From positions 3,472,001 through 3,536,000 of the forward strand of contig JAGUCH010000004.1 in assembly GCA_019096065.1 (NCBI GenBank): DNA of 64,000 nucleotides, given 5' to 3'. This DNA is from Paracyclopina nana. Its lineage: Eukaryota > Arthropoda > Copepoda > Cyclopoida > Cyclopettidae. The translations under genes were made by a program, and so were the position numbers. A model generated the notes under the pieces. That model was given only the letters and a program-made list of their open reading frames with translations, made no database searches and had not been told where the DNA came from. This document shows, piece by piece, positions 3 to 59,214 of the stretch. The number at the start of each line of letters is the position of its first letter. Positions within the stretch are counted from its first letter, which is position 1.

Positions 3-2396
3 GAGGATGTCCGTCAACGCAATGAAAAAGCAATTCGCAAGTCTTTGAAAAGGAAACTTGAGGAGTTGGGTACTATAGATCCAAACGATACGACACCAGA
101 ATTCAGCGATGACGAAATCAACGCCGAGAATGTGCAAGCATCGAATGGCCAAGAACTCACTGAGCCGAGTCCATTTTTCGATGAGTTGCCTCAAATTGTG
201 AAAAGAAGAAGGCTTGAAAGTGAGTCGGAAGTTGTTGGCAGCCTTACTTTGGATGAGCCTCAAAGTGAAAACAACGAAACCGTAGATGTGTTGGCTGACA
301 TTAGCTTTGAAAGTAACAGCTCACTTCAATCTCAATTATTCGATCCTCGAAGACCAGTAATGGTCAATGGTGCCAGCTTGGATTTTGATGCGAATACTGA
401 GCGCTACAGAGAGGAGCTAAGAAACAACGACACTGAAAGTCAATCCAATGGTGAAGAAGAAGATGAGTTCTATGATTGTCAATCAGAAGTTGGTGAAGAG
501 AGTCAACGTATAGAGGATCCTAGGGAGGACAATGCAATTTTGATGCATGGAACAACCTTAAAGGATTTCCGTGATGCATTGGTCGAAGAGGAAGAGCTGG
601 AAAGTCAGAAAGATCGCAATTTCGCATTATATGCTCGCTTTTTCTACTTGACGTCCCTTCTGGCTGTTACGGATCGTGCAGCGAAAGTCTTTTGGAATTT
701 TGCAAGAGCCATGACTGACAGGAAACTTCTCTCATTCAAAGCGATAAAGAAAAGATTTGAAAAGAAAATACCAAAAGTGACTATGACTTATGAGTTTTTT
801 GATACCGTGGAGAAGAAGATAATGCATCATAATGGAAAGTCCTTTCCAAGGAAGAAATATCCCAGGCCGAGATACCTTCTATTGTCAGAGTGGTCAACTG
901 TTTCACTAGTGGAACTGTTCGAGTTCTTCAAGAGTGTACATCCACCAGGTTACAAATGCGAGTGGCATGGAAAGAAATATGTTGACTTATTCTTGGACGG
1001 AGTGCCGCTTTGCAAATCGTCTGATGCATCCATGAATGTGCTATGTGTTCGTTGTAATCCATGCCGCAAAGTATGGCCGCTAGCAGTGCACGTTTACAGA
1101 AAAGGCCACAGTACTGATATCGTTGATCTGACTTCTGATGTGCTTCAGCAATGTTACGACAATAACTTTATTGTCCGCAAATTTATCGGAGATAGCCCCA
1201 TGCGCGCACGAATGAAGTGTTTAAAGCAGCACAACGGCTATGGAAGCTGCGAAATGTGCAAGGTCCATGGAGAATGGCTCAAGGACTTCAACAAGATGGC
1301 CTTTCCCGCTGACACTATGCACTCTGAGAAGCGGACTCATGATGAGTGGAAAGCAATTGCCACAAAACTCAGCGCCAATCCAAGATCGGTCACTAAGGCA
1401 AAGCGCTTTGGAATTAAAGGATACAGTCCACTACTTGACCTCGACTACTTCAACATCATTGATGACTTCGTGCCTGATCCAATGCATAACATATCGTTAG
1501 GTGTTTGCAGGCTATTGCTTCAATGCATTTTGGAAACCAACGGTAAAGGCGTGACGTCATCTAGAGGAGTTTCGATTGCAAAAAAGTTTGACGAGAAATG
1601 GGTTAACTTAGACATTCCGAGAGAGTTCCCTAGGAGGCCAAGATCAATCAAGGACAATTTTGTCCACTTGAAAGCCTCAGAATTAATCGCCATTGTGTGC
1701 TGCGGCTTTACTTTGATGGGTGATGCACTACTGTCTTGGCCAAGTGGGCTTAGGAAGACATGGTACAGGTTCTCTTGGATTGTGCACGCTGCATTGATGC
1801 CCGACATTGTCTTCAACAAGATTATGGATGATGGGAAGGCAACCAGAAGCCAACTCAGGTTTTACGAGACTTTCCAGAACACATTTGGAGTCGACAAGTG
1901 CCACTTTAATATTCATACCTTCTCGCATTTGCTCCAAATAAGAAAAATTGGTCCCCTTTCCGACTTCAGTGCGATGCCATTTGAAAGTTTCTTCTCCTAC
2001 TTGAAGAAAATAATCAAACCTTATACTTTAAGTTTTGCGAAACAAGTCTTAGTCAAAACCTTCATCTGCAACATGAACAGACATCCGTGCGGCTACAAAG
2101 TCAGTTTGACAGCGAAAACGAAGAAAAGATGTGTAGACAATCTCATTGGGACTGTAGATGGTCTATTCTACTATGTGCATGACTTTAATGGTGATGTCTT
2201 GGAGTGCACTCAAGTAATGACGCAAGAGTTCTACACGCCTGATTGCCCCGAATTGAATTGGAGTGCCGTTATGGTCAAAGTGGTTGATCACGTTGATGAT
2301 GAAGTCGTTCAAGTTCCTCGAAGCAAAGCAATTTTCAAGGCAGTTATTGCGGATAATGTCATTATCTCCGTCCCAAACGACGTCTATTTCACTTAG
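3..2396 (+). CDS. CACTA/EnSpm-like transposase, 5' end beyond the window
   Basis: A single uninterrupted reading frame runs from the left edge, with no in-frame stop back to base 3, so the true start may lie outside. At least 797 residues are visible. The first ~150 residues are acidic and low complexity. After that comes a transposase-like body: WHGKKYVDLFLDGVPL near residue 325, a Cys-rich CVRCNPC and CEMCK pair, the motif DPMHNISLGV, and near the C-terminus MPFESFFSYLKK. In tnp2-type transposases the equivalents are a D-x-x-H-x-x-x-LGV motif and an F-P-F-E-x-x-L-x-x-LK motif. From the family one infers an RNase-H-like DDE cut-and-paste enzyme. The frame is intact, which suggests recent mobility or domestication. 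I could not identify the CACTA termini. PIF/Harbinger-like origin is a less likely alternative. Confidence 0.72.
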   Translation, partial: EDVRQRNEKAIRKSLKRKLEELGTIDPNDTTPEFSDDEINAENVQASNGQELTEPSPFFDELPQIVKRRRLESESEVVGSLTLDEPQSENNETVDVLADISFESNSSLQSQLFDPRRPVMVNGASLDFDANTERYREELRNNDTESQSNGEEEDEFYDCQSEVGEESQRIEDPREDNAILMHGTTLKDFRDALVEEEELESQKDRNFALYARFFYLTSLLAVTDRAAKVFWNFARAMTDRKLLSFKAIKKRFEKKIPKVTMTYEFFDTVEKKIMHHNGKSFPRKKYPRPRYLLLSEWSTVSLVELFEFFKSVHPPGYKCEWHGKKYVDLFLDGVPLCKSSDASMNVLCVRCNPCRKVWPLAVHVYRKGHSTDIVDLTSDVLQQCYDNNFIVRKFIGDSPMRARMKCLKQHNGYGSCEMCKVHGEWLKDFNKMAFPADTMHSEKRTHDEWKAIATKLSANPRSVTKAKRFGIKGYSPLLDLDYFNIIDDFVPDPMHNISLGVCRLLLQCILETNGKGVTSSRGVSIAKKFDEKWVNLDIPREFPRRPRSIKDNFVHLKASELIAIVCCGFTLMGDALLSWPSGLRKTWYRFSWIVHAALMPDIVFNKIMDDGKATRSQLRFYETFQNTFGVDKCHFNIHTFSHLLQIRKIGPLSDFSAMPFESFFSYLKKIIKPYTLSFAKQVLVKTFICNMNRHPCGYKVSLTAKTKKRCVDNLIGTVDGLFYYVHDFNGDVLECTQVMTQEFYTPDCPELNWSAVMVKVVDHVDDEVVQVPRSKAIFKAVIADNVIISVPNDVYFT

Positions 2397-36078: not shown

Positions 36079-37951
36079 TTAGAAGGTGAGGAGAGGCTGC
36101 TGCTGCTGATCGAGGACGGCCTTGATGATTGACCACCAGGGTAGCATGACATAGGTGCAAGCACTGCCAAGTGGCACGCTTTGGCACCGCTTCGACTCGC
36201 GCCACGAGTGGAAGATTTGCGTGTAGCCTTTCATCGTCCACAATGGGTTGTATTTGGCCTCCTCGAACTCGTCGAGGAGGTCGCCAGCATAAATCTCGCA
36301 GTGGGCGTCCCCGAAGGAATCGAGGCCGTCGCTCTCGGAGCCTCCGAACAGCCTACTTCCGAATTGACTCGCTGACTGAGGAGGCTGTCCAGATTTCGCT
36401 CCTGGATCCACCATGCCCATTCTCATAAAGTCGTGAATGGTACTGCTGGGATCACTCAGCCTCCGCTGATGGCCTCGTTTCATGCCCACAATATCCTCGG
36501 GCTTCCTCTTTGCGTTGTACGGAGATTGGACGAAGCCTCTGTGGTCGACCAGCTCGTCGTCCGAGTCGCCCCAGAGGTCCAGGAGGTCAGTGCCTGGCTC
36601 GGAGCAGGGCGTTTCGCAGCCACCCGCGGTCGTTTTGGCCACTGCCAGCTCGGCATGGCCATTAACGGCAGTGCCACCCAACAGCCGGACGTATTCAACG
36701 CGAGGCCCGGCCTGCTTCCCGGAAAACAGGGAAAAGAGGCTGGCCTGTGACAGCCTCTTCCGCACGGTCTGCGAGGCTCTCGCGTCGTGCACTCGTCTCA
36801 CAGTCTCGTATGGAACACATGCGGTGAAGAGGACCGTATTGATGGAGGCTTTGGAAGCCGAGGCCGTGAGCTCGATGCCCACGCTCTCGCCGTCCCTCAC
36901 GATCACGTCCTCGAACGTGTCCTCGAAGTTGTCAACGGTGAAACACACGTGAGGGTAGGTGATTTCCTCCCCCTCTCCCTTGCCATCCATTTTTCGTCTG
37001 CTGGGAGACGCGTACACTTTCTGAGTGTGCCGTTTCAAAACCTGCAAAGATCATTTCGCATCTTGTCAAACTACTTCTTCTACCTTATACTATATTATAC
37101 CCTCCGCTGAGCGTGGCTAAATATGGCCTAATCGTGACTTAACGCCCTTTTACCTTCTTTATCTGAAATTCATGCTAATTATCCCGCAAAAAGTTGAGCA
37201 GCCATCATATATAGCATTTTTGCCAAACTTTCCTTACACTTTTACCATATCAAGAAGTTGAGCCATTTGGCGAAGAAAAATAAGTGGTTTGCGAACACGG
37301 CATGCTCGGCTCTTTGTAAAACCCATGATTGCACATGGTTCACTATAAAGGCATACAGGCCATTATATCAAGTAACGAAATCTAAAAAAAGATGGATGCA
37401 CTTATCAAATTTTGATCGACGTTCCACTCGGGGCTAAATGGATGCAATAGAGCTGAAATACCTGAAGATCTTTGGGGGAAGTGCGAGAGCAAATGGCCAG
37501 CGTGATGGTGTACTCTAGCTGATGGACGATCAAGTTGAGGTAAATGGTTTCTTCCCAATCCACGTCAGGGTCGCCGATGGTCAACTTGCGGCTGTCATGC
37601 CTGAATACCTGAGTTAATACGTAATTAGATGAAAGATCACAGACGTCTAGACGCTTATACCTCAACCGTCGTGTGCTGCTTGTTATGCCTACTTAGGGAG
37701 CTTGAGCCAGCTCCCGCATTGTTGCCACCTTTTCTGATGAAGAACAGCAAGTCGTCCCTGTCAGCCTCGTAATCAGACTGGAACAGAAAGTGGCGGACAA
37801 ACAGGTCAGTCCAGTAGGTAGTGTTTTGGTTGGAAGAGTAGCCTCTGGATCCCAAGGGCTCTCCAAAGGCTCCAGTGGTGCGGAGCTCCTTTCTGCGTCT
37901 GAAGGTGATCTCCTCGATGAGTTGCTCCAACGTGGTGTGCATGCTAGCCAT
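36079..37951 (-). CDS. KIAA0930: KIAA0930-family protein
   Basis: Exons 37951-37661, 37608-37462 and 37041-36079 give 466 residues (human 404). Function of the family is unknown; members are conserved cytosolic proteins. Matching landmarks are TYWTDLFVRHFLFQS followed by DDLLFFIRKGG, VEVFRHDSRKL, GDPDVDWEETIYLNLIVHQL, QKVYASPSRRKMDGKGE, ITYPHVCFTVDNFEDTF, GTAVNGHAELAVAKT, and a C-terminal CTYVMLPWWSIIKAVLDQ. The region from about 280 to 420 is Asp/Ser-rich and lineage specific. The start codon lies 9 bp beyond the SCHIP1 stop, in the same frame. The bases before it, GCTGTCAG|A, could also serve as a 3' splice site. The second intron is 420 bp. Confidence 0.88.
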
Positions 37952-37960
37952 TCTGACAGC

Positions 37961-39021
37961 TCAAAAGGGCGATACGTCGTGGCCTTGTATGCATTTAGTG
38001 ATGTCCTCAATGTCAGTGAGCAGCGAGTCTTGTTCTATGGCCAGCTCATCCCTGGCGATCAGGTATTGAACGAGATTCTCATTGAGTGTTTCAATTTGAG
38101 TCAGCAGGTAGTTGAGGATCACTTGCAGTTGGCTCACGTTCATGGGCGTCAAAATCCGGCGGTTGAGCTTGCTGCTGCCAGGCTGGTGTTTCAAGTATCG
38201 CAGGGATTCTGGGGAGCTCAGGAGCAATTTAGCTATATCGTCTCTAATCTGGCGCTCGCACCTCTCATCCTCCACTGTCTTGACAGCCAAAGATTTGGCC
38301 TCCTTCAATTGACGTCTCGTCTCAGACTGCATAAGATAGTAGCAATTAAATTCAAAGCTAAATGAGCAGAGGACGAAGTACCTGAATGTTGGCCAGTTGC
38401 TGAAAGAATGAGGTTTCTAAATGCAATCCGTTGCTTTCTCCTCCATTAACGCGAGGATCAGCTAGAGGTTTCTGGCTAATTAGTTGGCCATTAGTTGACT
38501 CCTCCGAGTAACGAAGGGGAATGATAACGTGTCCTTGTTTCCGTGATATGTTTCCTTCGACGCGTTCGAACCTGGCAGGAGTTCCTGGCACGGAGGGATT
38601 CCTTGACAAGCTATTGTCAGTGGCAGATGAGTCGTCGCTATCCCAGCCTTCGTGGTTGGCCAAGCAAGCAAGAGGATGATTGGCAGGAATTCGTGCGGAC
38701 TTGCTTCGTGCTAGATCCACATCCTCATCCGAGTCCTCAGCTTCCGAAGGAGTCTCGTTGAGGAAGCAAAGCAGCAAGTTGTTTCCACTCAACCCTGGAT
38801 CTTCTTCATCATCCCCCTCAGCCAGTTGCCTCCTTATGGTTTCTCTCTTGGAAGAAAAATCCTCCTTTTCTAATTCTACTGAAACAGAATGCTTGCATTC
38901 AACATTGGCTATAAGAAAAAGCAGTGTGCTGTTTACCTTTCTCGGCCTCAGTGATGTGCAACCTGTTTGCAGGGATCTCGATCAAATGATGGGTAAGGTC
39001 CTCTGAGGTCGTACCAGACAT
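37961..39021 (-). CDS. SCHIP1: Schwannomin-interacting protein 1
   Basis: Exons 39021-38937, 38878-38382 and 38326-37961 give 315 residues. SCHIP1 is a coiled-coil adaptor that binds merlin/schwannomin and, in flies, links to Hippo signalling at the membrane. The protein keeps KRETIRRQLAEGDDEEDPGL and NNLLLCFLNETPSEAEDSDED, equivalent to the vertebrate RESIRQKLALGS and LQICFVND regions. The C-terminal coiled coil (about 200-310) has MNVSQLQVILNYLLTQIETL, LVQYLIARDELAIEQDSLL and DIEDITK. It ends seven residues later at a TGA. The stop is followed in frame by three codons and the start of the KIAA0930-family gene, so the two may share a transcript. Confidence 0.9.
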
Positions 39022-54143: not shown

Positions 54144-54632
54144 GTGCGGACGTTGTGTAGCTTTAAAAGCCTTTTTGTGAATGGTTCATGTAGAGGGAAA
54201 CCGAGAGTGACTGGATGTACAGCAGAAGAGCGCTTTTCATCACATGGAGAGCGGAAATGTGAGCGCCAAGAGCTTTTTTTCCACGGCTTGACGACCGATC
54301 TTCAGATACATATAATGCTTGAATCGTAATCTGTGTGCTGAAATGAGAAAACCAAGCTTATTTAAATTGTAAAAAGCATTCCAAAGGATTCCAAAAAACC
54401 CAATTATTAGGAATCAAAAAGCAATTTTTTATCTACATGGTATATACAATTAGCATTTGTTATCCTCTCTCGTGATTTTTTTGGGCTTATTTGCACCATG
54501 CATTGACAGTCCAGATCAAACATTTGTCCCATCATCAATAAAGTGCCTTTTCTTACAACTCAATTGGACACTTGTAATGTACGTACAACGAGCTTGTGAA
54601 AATCCACATGTTCAGTCTGTGTCCACAACATC
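54144..54632. promoter_or_regulatory. Divergent spacer before the xylosyltransferase-like gene
   Basis: 489 bp between two divergent starts. An additional 5' exon of the minus-strand membrane protein could lie here. Nothing else seen. Confidence 0.4.
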
Positions 54633-57600
54633 ATGAGTCTGCACTTGGCAATTCAATTGCTGATTGCCAACGCCGCAATAGCACAGGGCTTTCACGATAA
54701 CAAAATTGGCAACAAGACGTATCCAGGATGGCACGAATTTCGTTACTTTTCTCCGGCCGCACTACAAAATAATTCGTTTGTAAGAACTCACGTCCTGACT
54801 GAGTTCTCGCCCAAAAGCTTTCTCATGTGTCCCAAGGGACATGTGATTGAAAAAATTCGCGCATCCTTCTTCAGACACGATGATGAGTTGACTGAAGGCC
54901 ACGAATGGACGCCTGCAATCATCTATGCAATTCCAGACACCGATCCTGCAGCAGAGCATTCATCAAAAGAAGGCTGCATTTCTTTGAAGGAATGCTTAGG
55001 ATTTCAAGCATGTGTCTTCACCTTTGGAAATGAGTTTTGCAAGTAAGATACTAAGTTGGAGCAACTCAATTTGCACGGATCAAACTTTTCTTACTCCTAT
55101 TTTGCATATTGTAGATGCGACTCAAATCCAGGCCAAAGAAAAGTACTGATGGCGAACATCAGTTGCACGAGCGAGGAATGGCTGTTAAGGAGCTTTTCCT
55201 CGTTAGCAACCTTCTTTGAAAAGAGATTTGACAGAGTGGCACATCTCACCTATGACTCGAAATTGAACCAATTGGGTGTCGAGCCATCGTCAATCGCTCT
55301 GAATGAGACGAAAATTGAAGTTCAACTCAGACAAGAAGAAAAGGTTTTTGCGGCAACTTGCCCCCAAGATCCTTACAAAAGTGGATACAAAGGGGAATGC
55401 AGGCCTCTGTTGAACAAGACCTCAGAAGAAATTTCTGAGGGTGTTTGGCATATCATGAGCAGAATCGAAAGTGAAACGTGTCAAAATCGACTAATGGAAG
55501 TGCATTGTGCTTTCCTGTACAACTCCAAGGGACTTTGTATTCCTCCAGGCTTTCTAAATGGCTCGGGGGCGAATTCCATGCTTGGAACTGAGCTTTATCC
55601 TTTGCGAGGAGCAAGGCCGACCCCAGTCCCAAATTTGGAGCAACATGTAAAAGGCCGAAAATCTTTATTTGAATACTTATTACAAAAAAAGGTTCCATTA
55701 TAGGAACTTATTCCAGCCGTGATGGGATTCTCTTTGTTGGTTCATTCAGGCAGCCTGTCAGTGATGCAATTGCTAGAGTCGATCTACAGGCCCCAAAACT
55801 ATTACGTCATCCACGTGGACCAGCGAAAAGATCATATCCGATATGAAATTGTTGATTTGATCAGAGAGAGATTTGGCTCAGCTTTGAACGTGAGAGTGCT
55901 TCCAAAGCATAGATCTTTCGTAACTTCGTGGGGATCGTTTGGGCTGGTGCGAGCGCAGCTGGAAACGTATGAAGAGCTATGCAGATTAGGCATTTGGGAC
56001 TTTGCCATCAACCTCAGTGGGGCAGATCTTCCTCTCCGTTCTTTGACTGATCTCAGCTATGCTTTAGCCCCTCACAGGTAACATTTCATAAAATAAATAT
56101 CTTTTGAAAAAATGTGGAAAAATTGGGAGAAGTCATTAAGGCCTAAAATAGGGGTAGGTTTTAGGATCTAAAATCATGGAGGGTTTTAAAGCCTACACTT
56201 TTTTTTTTAAAAAAATTGAAGTAATTTTTGTTTTGTTTTTGCAGAAATGAGTCTTTCATTTCTTACCATGGGATTGGGTACAAAAATGCTCCATTCCAAA
56301 TGGATGAGCATGCCATGAAAGGATTGCTGTTGGACTCTTACTACACTTGCAATGGGTTCACGTTTAATGTCACTAGGAATGGCGGAGTGCCGCAAATGGC
56401 CGATATTAAAATGGCCTCGGCCTCTCAATGGTCAGTGCTAGCTCGACAACTCGTTGAAGACTTGTTGGACCAAGAAAAACACTCTCCAGCCTGGAAAAAG
56501 CACAACTTTTGGATGGCAACAACCTGCATCCCAGATGAATCTTACATACCCACCTTTGCCATCAACTCCGGCCATAAAATTCACAACCTGGGCCTGCATT
56601 TTCTCAAATCATTCAATGATCATGATGCTTACCAGCTTTGCCGTCATTTGAGTGACGCAGATTTTTGTGGCCAAGGTCCAGGTTTCCTGGATGATGGAGA
56701 TTTACAAAACTTGATCGATTACTCACACTTGTTCTTCTTTGCGAGGAAGTTCAAAACTGATGATGACGCTCTTGAGTCAGTGCCAAGGCCTCAAGTTCTG
56801 GATTTAGGCATGCATAGTTGACTTTCTGTAATAAAAAGATGGCAGCAAAAAAGAGGCCTTACCTTGCAGGCATTGGAGGACGCTATTACACAAATCTTCG
56901 GAGGTTTTTGCCCGAGTCTCTATTGCAACAGCTCATGATGGAGGCCATAGGGAAAAAGTACGGAAACGGGGCCAACTTGAGCTTCACACTCAATCAGCTG
57001 CGAATTGTGCCGAGACTTCAACCGCGCGACCCTTGCTGTCAATACCCTTTTGACAGAAGGTTTCACAGTGTGCAAGAGTATCAGTACATTTTTGAATTTG
57101 AAGCATTCTCAGAAGTCAATGGCTCGGTACTGGGAGCATTCAGAGCCAAGTTTTCGTACAGGGCTCCTTTCAAATGTTACAAATTCGGACATTTACGAGT
57201 GCTCAGGGTGACTGCATTGAGTCGAGAACATCACCATGAGGACTCAATGGTCCGTTCTCCTGTGCCTCTTAACATGCCCTTTAATTTCTTTCCCTCGGGA
57301 GTACCAACAGGTGAGACATGCCTAAGTGGCTCAGACTTTTTCGCATCTTTTCTCTTGTAGTTTATGTAGAAGTTTGGCTGAATACCTATAATGAACTACT
57401 GAAAACTCATGGTGGGAGCATTTGAGTATGATACTCAATATAATGCTGAAAATATTGATACTTTTGTGACAACCGTATTTTTGTTTCGCAAAAGTTGCAG
57501 AAAAAGTTGCGCGAAGGTGACAATTTTTTATATTTGGATAGGTGACAGGGTGTGAAATTAGAAGGAAAATTAGGCGCCAGCGTGGGAAAAAAGTAGTTAT

Positions 57601-59214
57601 AGCACAAACAGCGAATAATCGAATTTTCTGACCTGAATTGCTGACAGCAGAAGATTTTTGATGAAGAATAACCACTCATTACCCGCTTCACCGAGTAGTA
57701 AGTGCACCGCATAGTCTGAGCTTGCCAATCAATTTTGGAATCTTGTTGACACTTGAAAAAAGACAAGAACTCACGACTAATCGGATCTTCCGATCTTGTT
57801 TGAGTTGTTTCAAGTGAAATCCGAAAAAATCGGAAATACTCATCAATCAGCACAGCTCGTCTGCTTCTAAAGCTGAGATTTCGTTAGAGCTGAGAGTCTC
57901 AGTCCATTAAACTGCCTTTCCTGATTTTTAAACCACCGTATCAGAGCTGTCAGAGGACTTTTTCCAAAACCCTTAAAAATTTCCAGAAAACAGCCAGTTT
58001 GTCGTGATCATATTTGACAAAACCACAAAGTACAATCTCTTTCTTAGCCGGCCTTTTTAAGCTACTTTTTTAAAAAGTTACTTATAAAACTGTTGCTCAC
58101 AATTTCTCTGTTTAGTGTTTACCGAGCCAATTTGGCCGAAACCCTCTGTATCTGGTAGCACTGTTACCGGTTTAAAAAAGAGATTAAGATTGCTCAGTTT
58201 ACAGAGTGCGTCAGTGCAGTGCGAGCGAGCGACAGAGGAGTGCGGACACCGGACAGAGTAAAAAAGCTGTTAAAGCGAGTAGTGATTATTTTTTGCCTAT
58301 TTGTGTATGCCCAAGATGGTTAAGGCGGTTAATCTCTCATGAGTCATGTCTCAACTCTCAGCTGACTGCTCCCACCATGACAACTTTTGAGGCTGCCAAA
58401 ATCCGAGCAAATCGAACCATGAAGATGAGCACATGGTCTTCATTGACCAGTTGAGGCCGTTCAACTCTTCGGAGCCTCGCTACTTGAATGCTGGCTCTTC
58501 AATGTTGATAAGGGCCGACCTAATCGATCCCATGGGAAATATTAGAGCCAGCGGAGACAAATTAATTGAGTGGAACAATGAGACCGTAAAGCACTTTTTT
58601 GACCCAAGAGATGGAAGAAATAGAAGTTTTCATGGAGAACTTGCCCACACTTTTACGCTGAACACTGGATCAACGGAACCCGGAATTTGGACTGTGAGGG
58701 TCTACAAAGCTCAGGGCACAAAGCCTTTTATCTACGAAATTCCCTTGCTGTTTTTGCCACCAAGGGCAATCATTGACTCGACCGAGGAGAACCTGTTATT
58801 GGTAAGAAGCTTTTTTTCAGTTTTTTAAAGTTGGGCACCTCTTGAAGTTTTCATTAGGGTTTCTGGAATGTTGAGTCCGTCACAAATGTTAATAGTGTGA
58901 AGTCGTTTACAACTCAAAATGTTGCTTTTGCTACCGCCCAAGAAGCTAAACATGGCTGTGATGTTGACTGCCAAAGTTGCAGTGGAAAAGGTTACAACCC
59001 TACAACGATTATGTACATTAATGAGTGGTTGTTTTGTGGAGGAGGCCTGGTGACCCTCATCACCTGCTTTTACTTTACACTTTCTTCATTTAATGGATTG
59101 ACAGCTCGGTCGTCGATCAATCGGCGATCTTCAGCTTTTCGAACCCTGACCGTTGTCAGCCTGGCCATTTTGTTTCAAGCAATTATTTGCACCATTTCAG
59201 AGCTTTGTTTCTAA
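54633..59214 (+). CDS. Xylosyltransferase-like protein with lectin-like N-terminus and C-terminal membrane helices
   Basis: Exons 54633-55042, 55115-55646, 55704-56077, 56245-56816, 56870-57310, about 58392-58801 and 58858-59214 give about 1031 residues. Residues 1-18 look like a signal peptide. Residues about 60-160 resemble a SUEL/galactose-binding lectin (FLMCPKGHVIEKIRASFF, EGCISLKEC, QACVF, GNEFCK). Residues about 310-640 are a GT14 catalytic domain nearest peptide O-xylosyltransferase: PQNYYVIHVDQRKD, VTSWGSFGLV, INLSGADLPLRS, PDESYIPTFAINSGH with the catalytic-type Glu, and FFFARKF. A Xylo_C-like domain follows (GIWTVRVYKAQG). Two helices lie at about 970-989 and 1009-1027. Canonical xylosyltransferases are type II with an N-terminal anchor. 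Donor of exon 4 is weak (A|GTTGAC; a GC donor at 56807 is possible) and the exon 6 acceptor is uncertain (58392 or 58425). Confidence 0.82.
57311..58391 (+). other. 1.1-kb intron of the xylosyltransferase-like gene
   Basis: AT-rich, no repeat or nested gene recognised. The donor (ACAG|GTGAGA) is strong. An extra small exon cannot be excluded, since the Xylo_C region here is shorter than in vertebrate enzymes. Confidence 0.55.

Follow-up and report, generated by a model that had tools for sequence, protein, structure and literature searches.

Operons that rely on trans-splicing are known from several animal phyla. In the SL1-type operons of Caenorhabditis elegans the stop codon of one gene and the acceptor of the next nearly coincide, with no intercistronic DNA and no room for a separate 3' UTR. 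The VAChT/ChAT cholinergic locus is organised by nested cis-splicing, and its first gene lies wholly inside an intron. The operons of Ciona intestinalis are described as mostly two genes on the same strand, less than 100 bp apart and mostly abutted, and single-exon 5' genes are given for 60% of them (PMC2760879). Among copepods, spliced leader (SL) trans-splicing is described from calanoids and SL-like sequences from parasitic siphonostomatoids; the same study gives no significant SL matches for cyclopoid or harpacticoid data, and the word operon is absent from its main text (PMC4664967). For Drosophila, 159 dicistronic pairs are annotated, and a polycistronic transcript is given for about 2.5% of the protein-coding genes (PMC4528330).

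The locus compared with these systems here lies in the copepod Paracyclopina nana, in a window (the whole stretch of DNA that was analysed, 64,000 nucleotides, C4:3472001-3536000) where a SCHIP1-family gene is followed on the minus strand by a DUF2045/KIAA0930-family gene (Table 1). From 37966 to 37940 the minus strand reads TTT TGA GCT GTC AGA ATG GCT AGC ATG. The TGA at 37963-37961 ends SCHIP1 and the ATG at 37951-37949 begins KIAA0930 in the same frame, 9 nt away, so that the first-pass annotation of this DNA, which had described exactly this spacing, is confirmed on the minus-strand sequence. A gene finder trained on the region returned the same starts, stops and 9-nt gap, with one additional exon of 9 nt in its KIAA0930 model.

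Table 1. Features of the SCHIP1/KIAA0930 junction (positions in the window) and the tight same-strand pairs found in 304 kb
Feature	Position	Strand	Gap	Basis
SCHIP1-family gene, 3 CDS exons 39021-38937, 38878-38382, 38326-37961; 315 aa; TGA stop	37961..39021	minus		gene model + Pfam
DUF2045/KIAA0930-family gene, 3 CDS exons 37951-37661, 37608-37462, 37041-36079; 466 aa	36079..37951	minus		gene model + Pfam
SCHIP1 exon 1 donor AAG/GTAAAC, score 6.3; a join with the acceptor that ends 8 nt ahead of the KIAA0930 ATG would be in frame	38926..38943	minus		PWM score, join test
Intercistronic gap GCTGTCAGA	37952..37960	minus	9 nt	sequence
Candidate 3' splice acceptor CGCCCTTTTGAG/CTG, overlaps SCHIP1 stop; exon from 37959	37960..37974	minus		sequence only
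Second, weaker candidate acceptor CTTTTGAGCTGTCAG/A; exon from 37952	37953..37967	minus		sequence only
Pair SCHIP-1_C / DUF2045		minus	9 nt	gene finder + Pfam
Pair homocysteine S-methyltransferase HMT PF02574 / tRNA uracil methyltransferase tRNA_U5-meth_tr PF05958 (TRMT2A-like; weak RRM match)		same strand	22 nt	gene finder + Pfam
Pair orphan 262 aa / PAP2 PF01569		same strand	26 nt	gene finder + Pfam
Pair DUF2340 PF10209 / PIG-L PF02585		same strand	3 nt (TGA AAA ATG G)	gene finder + Pfam

The first-pass annotation also took both proteins to be complete by family landmarks. Pfam SCHIP-1_C matches the SCHIP1 protein with an E-value of 9.3e-33, its best stretch covering residues 167-309 of 315 and profile positions 97-235 of 244, and DUF2045 matches the KIAA0930-family protein with an E-value of 8.9e-69 (residues 44-282, profile positions 2-230 of 231); by these coordinates the SCHIP1 domain stops six residues short of the stop codon and DUF2045 is whole. 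The 43 KIAA0930-family residues ahead of DUF2045 have the ATG as their one support. The context of that ATG is strong (A at -3, G at +4): 56 of the 73 predicted starts score equal or lower, and among internal ATGs just 3.7% come up to it. In a whole-genome profile search DUF2045 was found at this locus only, and SCHIP-1_C here (90 bits) and in a weaker above-cut-off match on C2 (43 bits) that is perhaps a FEZ-type relative. The names TRMT2A, C2orf76, KIAA0930 and FEZ-like are presumptive, and in part carried over from the first-pass annotation. A literature text search found no publication naming both SCHIP1 and KIAA0930, consistent with the earlier remark that the pairing is undescribed.

The acceptors at this junction are weak to moderate. 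The better candidate, CCCTTTTGAG/CTG, ends 8 nt before the KIAA0930 ATG and has a PWM score of 4.04, the 20th percentile of predicted acceptors. The AG that had originally been named as the 3' splice site (CTGTCAG/A, 1 nt before the ATG) turns out to be a poor one, at 2.26-2.54 and the 8.5th percentile of predicted acceptors.

Is this junction an oddity of one locus? It had been handled as unique, and it looks like a member of a class, with three sibling pairs in a sample of 304 kb of contiguous sequence. The sample was annotated with a simple gene finder self-trained there, which replaced a first automatic intron collection that was too noisy. The strict run retained 73 genes, and its 176 introns have ordinary splice signals. 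Its 26 same-strand neighbour gaps measure 9, 22, 201, 594 nt and up; convergent gaps go down to 51 nt, plus one predicted overlap, and the smallest of the 23 divergent gaps is 209 nt. A relaxed run gave 109 raw predictions and eight same-strand gaps below 200 nt, four of them accepted and four set aside. The result is four tight same-strand pairs, with gaps of 3, 9, 22 and 26 nt by gene finder and Pfam; after removal of the four doubtful short-gap calls, the same-strand gaps that follow in size measure 201 and 594 nt. Under an exponential null with a mean of 1865 nt, 0.39 gaps of at most 26 nt are expected among 28 and P(>=4) is 0.0007, in a post hoc test where two of the 28 gaps come from the relaxed run, the same run in which four others were set aside. 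The frames across the four gaps are 0, 0, 1 and 2, the 22- and 26-nt gaps being out of frame.

The geometry of these pairs resembles that of the Ciona operons, as these are described: gaps of 3, 9, 22 and 26 nt fall under the 100-bp same-strand spacing, and single-exon upstream genes, common there, make up two of the four here (HMT and the 262-aa orphan, against 21/73 genes overall). It differs in that the trans-spliced 5' ends of Ciona have been shown by ESTs, whereas here the genes are read from DNA alone and two of the four junctions are without a strong acceptor. The orphan protein has no significant match in family or structure searches, and the orphan/PAP2 pair therefore rests on coding score, the downstream PAP2 domain and the acceptor.

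Several other short gaps were considered and rejected. At the 25-nt gap C4:3368028/3368054 the downstream frame continues upstream as coding, as judged by eye; the 54-nt gap at 3464058 separates two tiny calls, one of 59 aa with a score of 3.7 and one of 30 aa with a score of 0.5; at 3470984 the stricter run has a single gene across the 12-nt gap; and the calls around the 4-nt gap at 3536611 score 0.1 and 12.1. The class of tight pairs would be larger if any of these four were real. The strict run's 201-nt pair (C4:3396984/3397186), in which the 12-nt first exon is doubtful, was left out of the tight class. Within the window, a stop/ATG gap in a xylosyltransferase-like gene (56821/56839) was discarded, a 59-nt intron with a poor donor being able to join both parts in frame. 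The upstream part of that gene aligns to XYLT1 up to query residue 295, and a similarity search found no credible match for the downstream part, which may resemble the XylT C-terminal domain. A model-free scan for a stop and then an ATG between coding frames showed no clear ATG excess: seven hits within 30 nt and rank 10 of 61 codons, at 5.9 per 10,000 codon occurrences where the other sense codons average 3.6. Tight pairs are thus a minority feature, and because several scan hits are intron edges, gene models and Pfam are needed for each pair.

Two of the sibling gaps carry near-consensus 3' acceptors. The HMT/TRMT2A-like gap is TGCTATTTTCTCATTTCAG/ACG followed by ATG, with the acceptor ending 3 nt before the start codon, and the orphan/PAP2 gap is TGGATATTCTCTTATTTTCAG/CTGAA followed by ATG, with the acceptor ending 5 nt before it. 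With a scoring matrix whose training left out the four pairs, ATTTTCTCATTTCAG/ACG/ATG reaches 8.19 and ATTCTCTTATTTTCAG/CTGAA/ATG 9.02, the 91.5th and 98.2nd percentiles of held-out predicted acceptors. Acceptor scores of at least 8 occur at 0.05 per kb in random intergenic sequence, and within 26 nt after the stop at 2 of 68 gene ends, those of HMT and the 262-aa orphan only; as three of the 68 are tight-pair ends, the chance of both strong acceptors falling at tight pairs is about 0.001 (3/2278, by hand). The best acceptor at the DUF2340/PIG-L junction scores 1.46, the 3rd percentile. For ATGs in general there is no enrichment of strong acceptors just upstream: they occur at 4/64 and 5/64 genes in the first two 20-nt bins before the ATG, and in 5.1% of bins drawn at random from intergenic sequence. 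Leaders added near the ATG of many genes would pile up acceptors there, so this flat profile counts against a trans-splicing reading. Poly(A) signals do not discriminate: none of the four upstream genes of pairs has one, compared with 22/63 other genes within 150 nt and 19% at random.

Splicing to a strong acceptor that lies between stop and ATG requires a donor, which a leader added in trans would supply. Could a nearby cis 5' exon supply it? The 620 nt ahead of the first ATG, at HMT as at SCHIP1, hold no donor scoring at least 4, and no such exon is therefore obvious for these two genes. The HMT coding sequence holds no donor of at least 5, and the 209 nt between its start codon and that of the divergent neighbour hold two weak ones (3.5). 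Since 128 of 176 predicted donors reach 4, the shortage at HMT is suggestive and no proof. The orphan/PAP2 pair has two upstream donors of at least 4 (4.55 at -567 and 4.09 at -396) and the DUF2340/PIG-L pair three, so a cis 5' exon is possible at both.

The genome assembly comprises 91.95 Mb in 10 contigs, nine of them large (6.3-17.8 Mb). TTAGG is the arthropod telomere repeat, and CCTAA/TTAGG arrays stand at four of the 10 contig starts (C2, C5, C6 and C7); GGCCT repeats open C1, neither repeat is present at the starts of C3, C4 and C10, and C8 and C9 read N. LNR (Notch-type) domains give at least 38 above-cut-off matches, spread over all nine large contigs, with 150 of 437 candidates scored; 14 of the 38 start at profile position 11-12. 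A burst of LNR and shortened LNR-like domains has been called unique to the cyclopoid copepod Oithona nana (PMC8301441), and the spread seen here fits that description, with thresholds that differ between the two analyses; on these features the genome is probably that of an Oithona-like copepod. A search for insect odorant receptors matched nothing here or in the controls and carries no taxonomic weight.

Pattern searches of the genome against reversed controls did not recognisably find the calanoid, siphonostomatoid or amphipod leaders. The calanoid pattern with up to two mismatches gave five matches (control one), the siphonostomatoid pattern with up to three mismatches two (control five), and the amphipod pattern no inexact matches (control three). 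The short SL-like2 pattern had eight exact matches against none in the control, about 2.7 being expected from base count (by hand). Two of the eight lie 66 nt apart on C8, the spacers are varied, unlike the published ones, and no SL gene was obvious in the four loci inspected. The copepods for which trans-splicing is described belong to the same subclass of animals as this genome, but the calanoid and siphonostomatoid leaders are not recognisable in it.

The favoured explanation, to which we give a probability of roughly 0.45 from the sequence, is an operon-like unit in which SCHIP1 and KIAA0930 would be co-transcribed and the downstream 5' end made at the junction by splicing, probably in trans. 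Transcription of both genes would start from one promoter ahead of SCHIP1. The KIAA0930 message would gain its own 5' end at the candidate 3' splice site where stop and start meet, most likely through a putative short leader RNA added by trans-splicing, and the two proteins would be translated from separate or alternative mRNAs. Established observations are the close spacing, the domains that place both genes in their families, the class of such pairs and the near-consensus acceptors in two sibling gaps. Co-transcription with junction splicing is favoured because of the gap acceptors, the donor shortage at HMT, the leaders known from calanoid copepods and the Ciona geometry. The junction also recalls the SL1-type operons of C. 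elegans in the near-coincidence of stop and acceptor and the lack of space for a 3' UTR of its own; it differs from them in belonging to another phylum, and SL1 is known there.

A serious rival is dicistronic translation, in which both ORFs would lie on one mature mRNA and KIAA0930 would be reached by reinitiation or internal entry 9 nt past the SCHIP1 stop. The closeness of an ATG whose context so few internal ATGs match (3.7%) argues for it, and it suits the 3-nt DUF2340/PIG-L gap (TGA AAA ATG G), which is without a good acceptor. Reinitiation after an ORF of 315 codons is normally poor, and the near-consensus acceptors in two sibling gaps would be left unexplained; we consider this possible, though rather doubtful, at the SCHIP1/KIAA0930 junction. 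Drosophila dicistronic pairs are a precedent from an arthropod with two ORFs per transcript (putative here), but there it is the dicistronic mRNA itself that serves for translation of the second ORF, and an acceptor in the gap is not in that model (PMC4528330). Even with splicing at the 22-nt and 26-nt pairs, the 3-nt and 9-nt pairs may well be cases of dicistronic translation. The first-pass annotation had proposed a shared transcript with either dicistronic translation or splicing, and both survive, the splicing branch now backed by the sibling pairs; its further proposal of stop-codon readthrough fares worse. The frame is open across the SCHIP1 TGA and would give a fusion of 785 residues, and readthrough is described as apparently common in flies, at UGA most often (PMC4528330). 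With the 22- and 26-nt gaps putting two of the four pairs out of frame it cannot be a general device, and the SCHIP1 domain ends where the protein ends, making readthrough very improbable.

Nested cis-splicing as at VAChT/ChAT would start from a shared first exon, joined in some mRNAs to SCHIP1 and in others, past SCHIP1, to the junction acceptor, so that one alternatively cis-spliced exon could serve both genes. A join from SCHIP1 exon 1 (strong donor, 6.3) to the AG that ends 8 nt ahead of the ATG keeps the frame and would yield a 497-aa KIAA0930 with a 31-residue extension; the three remaining joins tested break the frame. Donors of 4.1-6.1 lie upstream of the first gene at orphan/PAP2 and DUF2340/PIG-L. 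An in-frame match has a one-in-three chance, however, and HMT/TRMT2A has two weak donors (3.5) in 209 nt and none of at least 4 within 620 nt; this route is unlikely. SCHIP1 has introns of its own, whereas in the cholinergic locus the first gene is wholly intronic. Separate promoters, with KIAA0930 started from inside SCHIP1 exon 3 and the SCHIP1 mRNA continuing into KIAA0930, have a parallel in the overlapping same-strand transcripts of compact genomes; a promoter in coding sequence would be required at all four pairs, in a sample where the tightest of the 23 divergent gaps still spans 209 nt, and the odds on this reading are poor. Assembly error, by which the genes would not be truly adjacent or a base error would create the stop, draws some credit from the frame break in the nearby xylosyltransferase-like gene, itself perhaps an odd intron or an error. 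Against it stand an assembly with nine contigs in the range 6.3-17.8 Mb plus a tenth of 0.27 Mb, a stop near the family's C-terminus and an identical layout at three further pairs, and it is barely credible.

Returning to junction splicing in an operon-like unit, the sequence of the four pairs is compatible with a copepod operon system like that of tunicates or nematodes, in which abutted pairs would be resolved by trans-splicing of a putative leader, an idea held tentatively and at somewhat less than even odds. Eight of about 75 sampled genes lie in tight pairs, and simple proportion gives about 1,200 pairs per 92-Mb genome, a figure reckoned by hand with a several-fold error either way. According to a 2021 methods paper, copepods and amphipods both have spliced leaders, yet reports of operons are lacking for either group (PMC7986045). 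No report of an arthropod operon system with trans-splicing was found in the literature searched, which was judged largely by titles and had subscription papers and preprints mostly outside its scope. If confirmed, the system would be of a known kind in a new phylum. It would be a warning to annotators, who may fuse such pairs in error or miss the second gene, and the question of when and why operons evolve would become directly testable in an ecologically important group with a compact arthropod genome.

The 22 nt that separate the homocysteine S-methyltransferase and TRMT2A-like genes, one of three tight pairs that lie on the same contig as the SCHIP1/KIAA0930-family pair, are occupied by a near-consensus 3' splice acceptor, and the gap between the orphan gene and the PAP2 phosphatase contains a very strong one (position weight matrix score 9.02). 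At the third pair, DUF2340 and PIG-L, the junction reads TGA AAA ATG. Across the whole genome, 47 5S rRNA copies were scored out of 2503 first-look candidates. The two matches to the short copepod spliced leader-like pattern are 66 nt apart, with an identical spacer in both.

Features in the P. nana assembly (G000; C1, C4 and C8 are contigs, L numbers are loci)
Feature	Location	Strand	Locus
Homocysteine S-methyltransferase/TRMT2A-like pair, 22-nt gap	C4:3254650-3254673	minus	L016
Orphan 262-aa gene/PAP2 phosphatase pair, 26-nt gap	C4:3287790-3287817	plus	L019
DUF2340 (C2orf76-like)/PIG-L pair	C4:3401391-3401397	plus	L030
5S rRNA tandem array, unit ~470 nt	G000:C1:913544-939931
Two exact matches to short copepod SL-like pattern	G000:C8:817637-817719	minus
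1599-aa single-exon ORF and downstream coding frames	C4:3367555-3373984	minus	L027, L028
Xylosyltransferase-like gene, frame interrupted by TGA	window 54600-58828	plus

A gap of 93 nt separates the 1599-aa ORF from a 248-aa open frame downstream of it; beyond that lie more short coding frames, and the reading frame apparently changes near 3368050. Two small proteins of this region gave no significant match when tested against Pfam. The ORF cluster is possibly a mobile element. By eye, a long plus-strand ORF at window positions 3-2396 looks transposon-protein-like.

The frame of the xylosyltransferase-like gene is broken by the TGA at 56819-56821, with an ATG 17 nt further on, at 56839, and an AATAAA between them. 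The part upstream of the TGA aligns with XYLT1; the downstream part may resemble the XYLT1 C-terminal domain, but a match search with it returned no credible match. A short intron of unusual form might account for the break, as might an error or the splitting of the gene in two.

Notch/LNR domains form a burst dispersed across the nine large contigs of the assembly, and 14 of the 38 matches do not include roughly the first ten profile positions. This burst resembles the one described for Oithona nana (PMC8301441).
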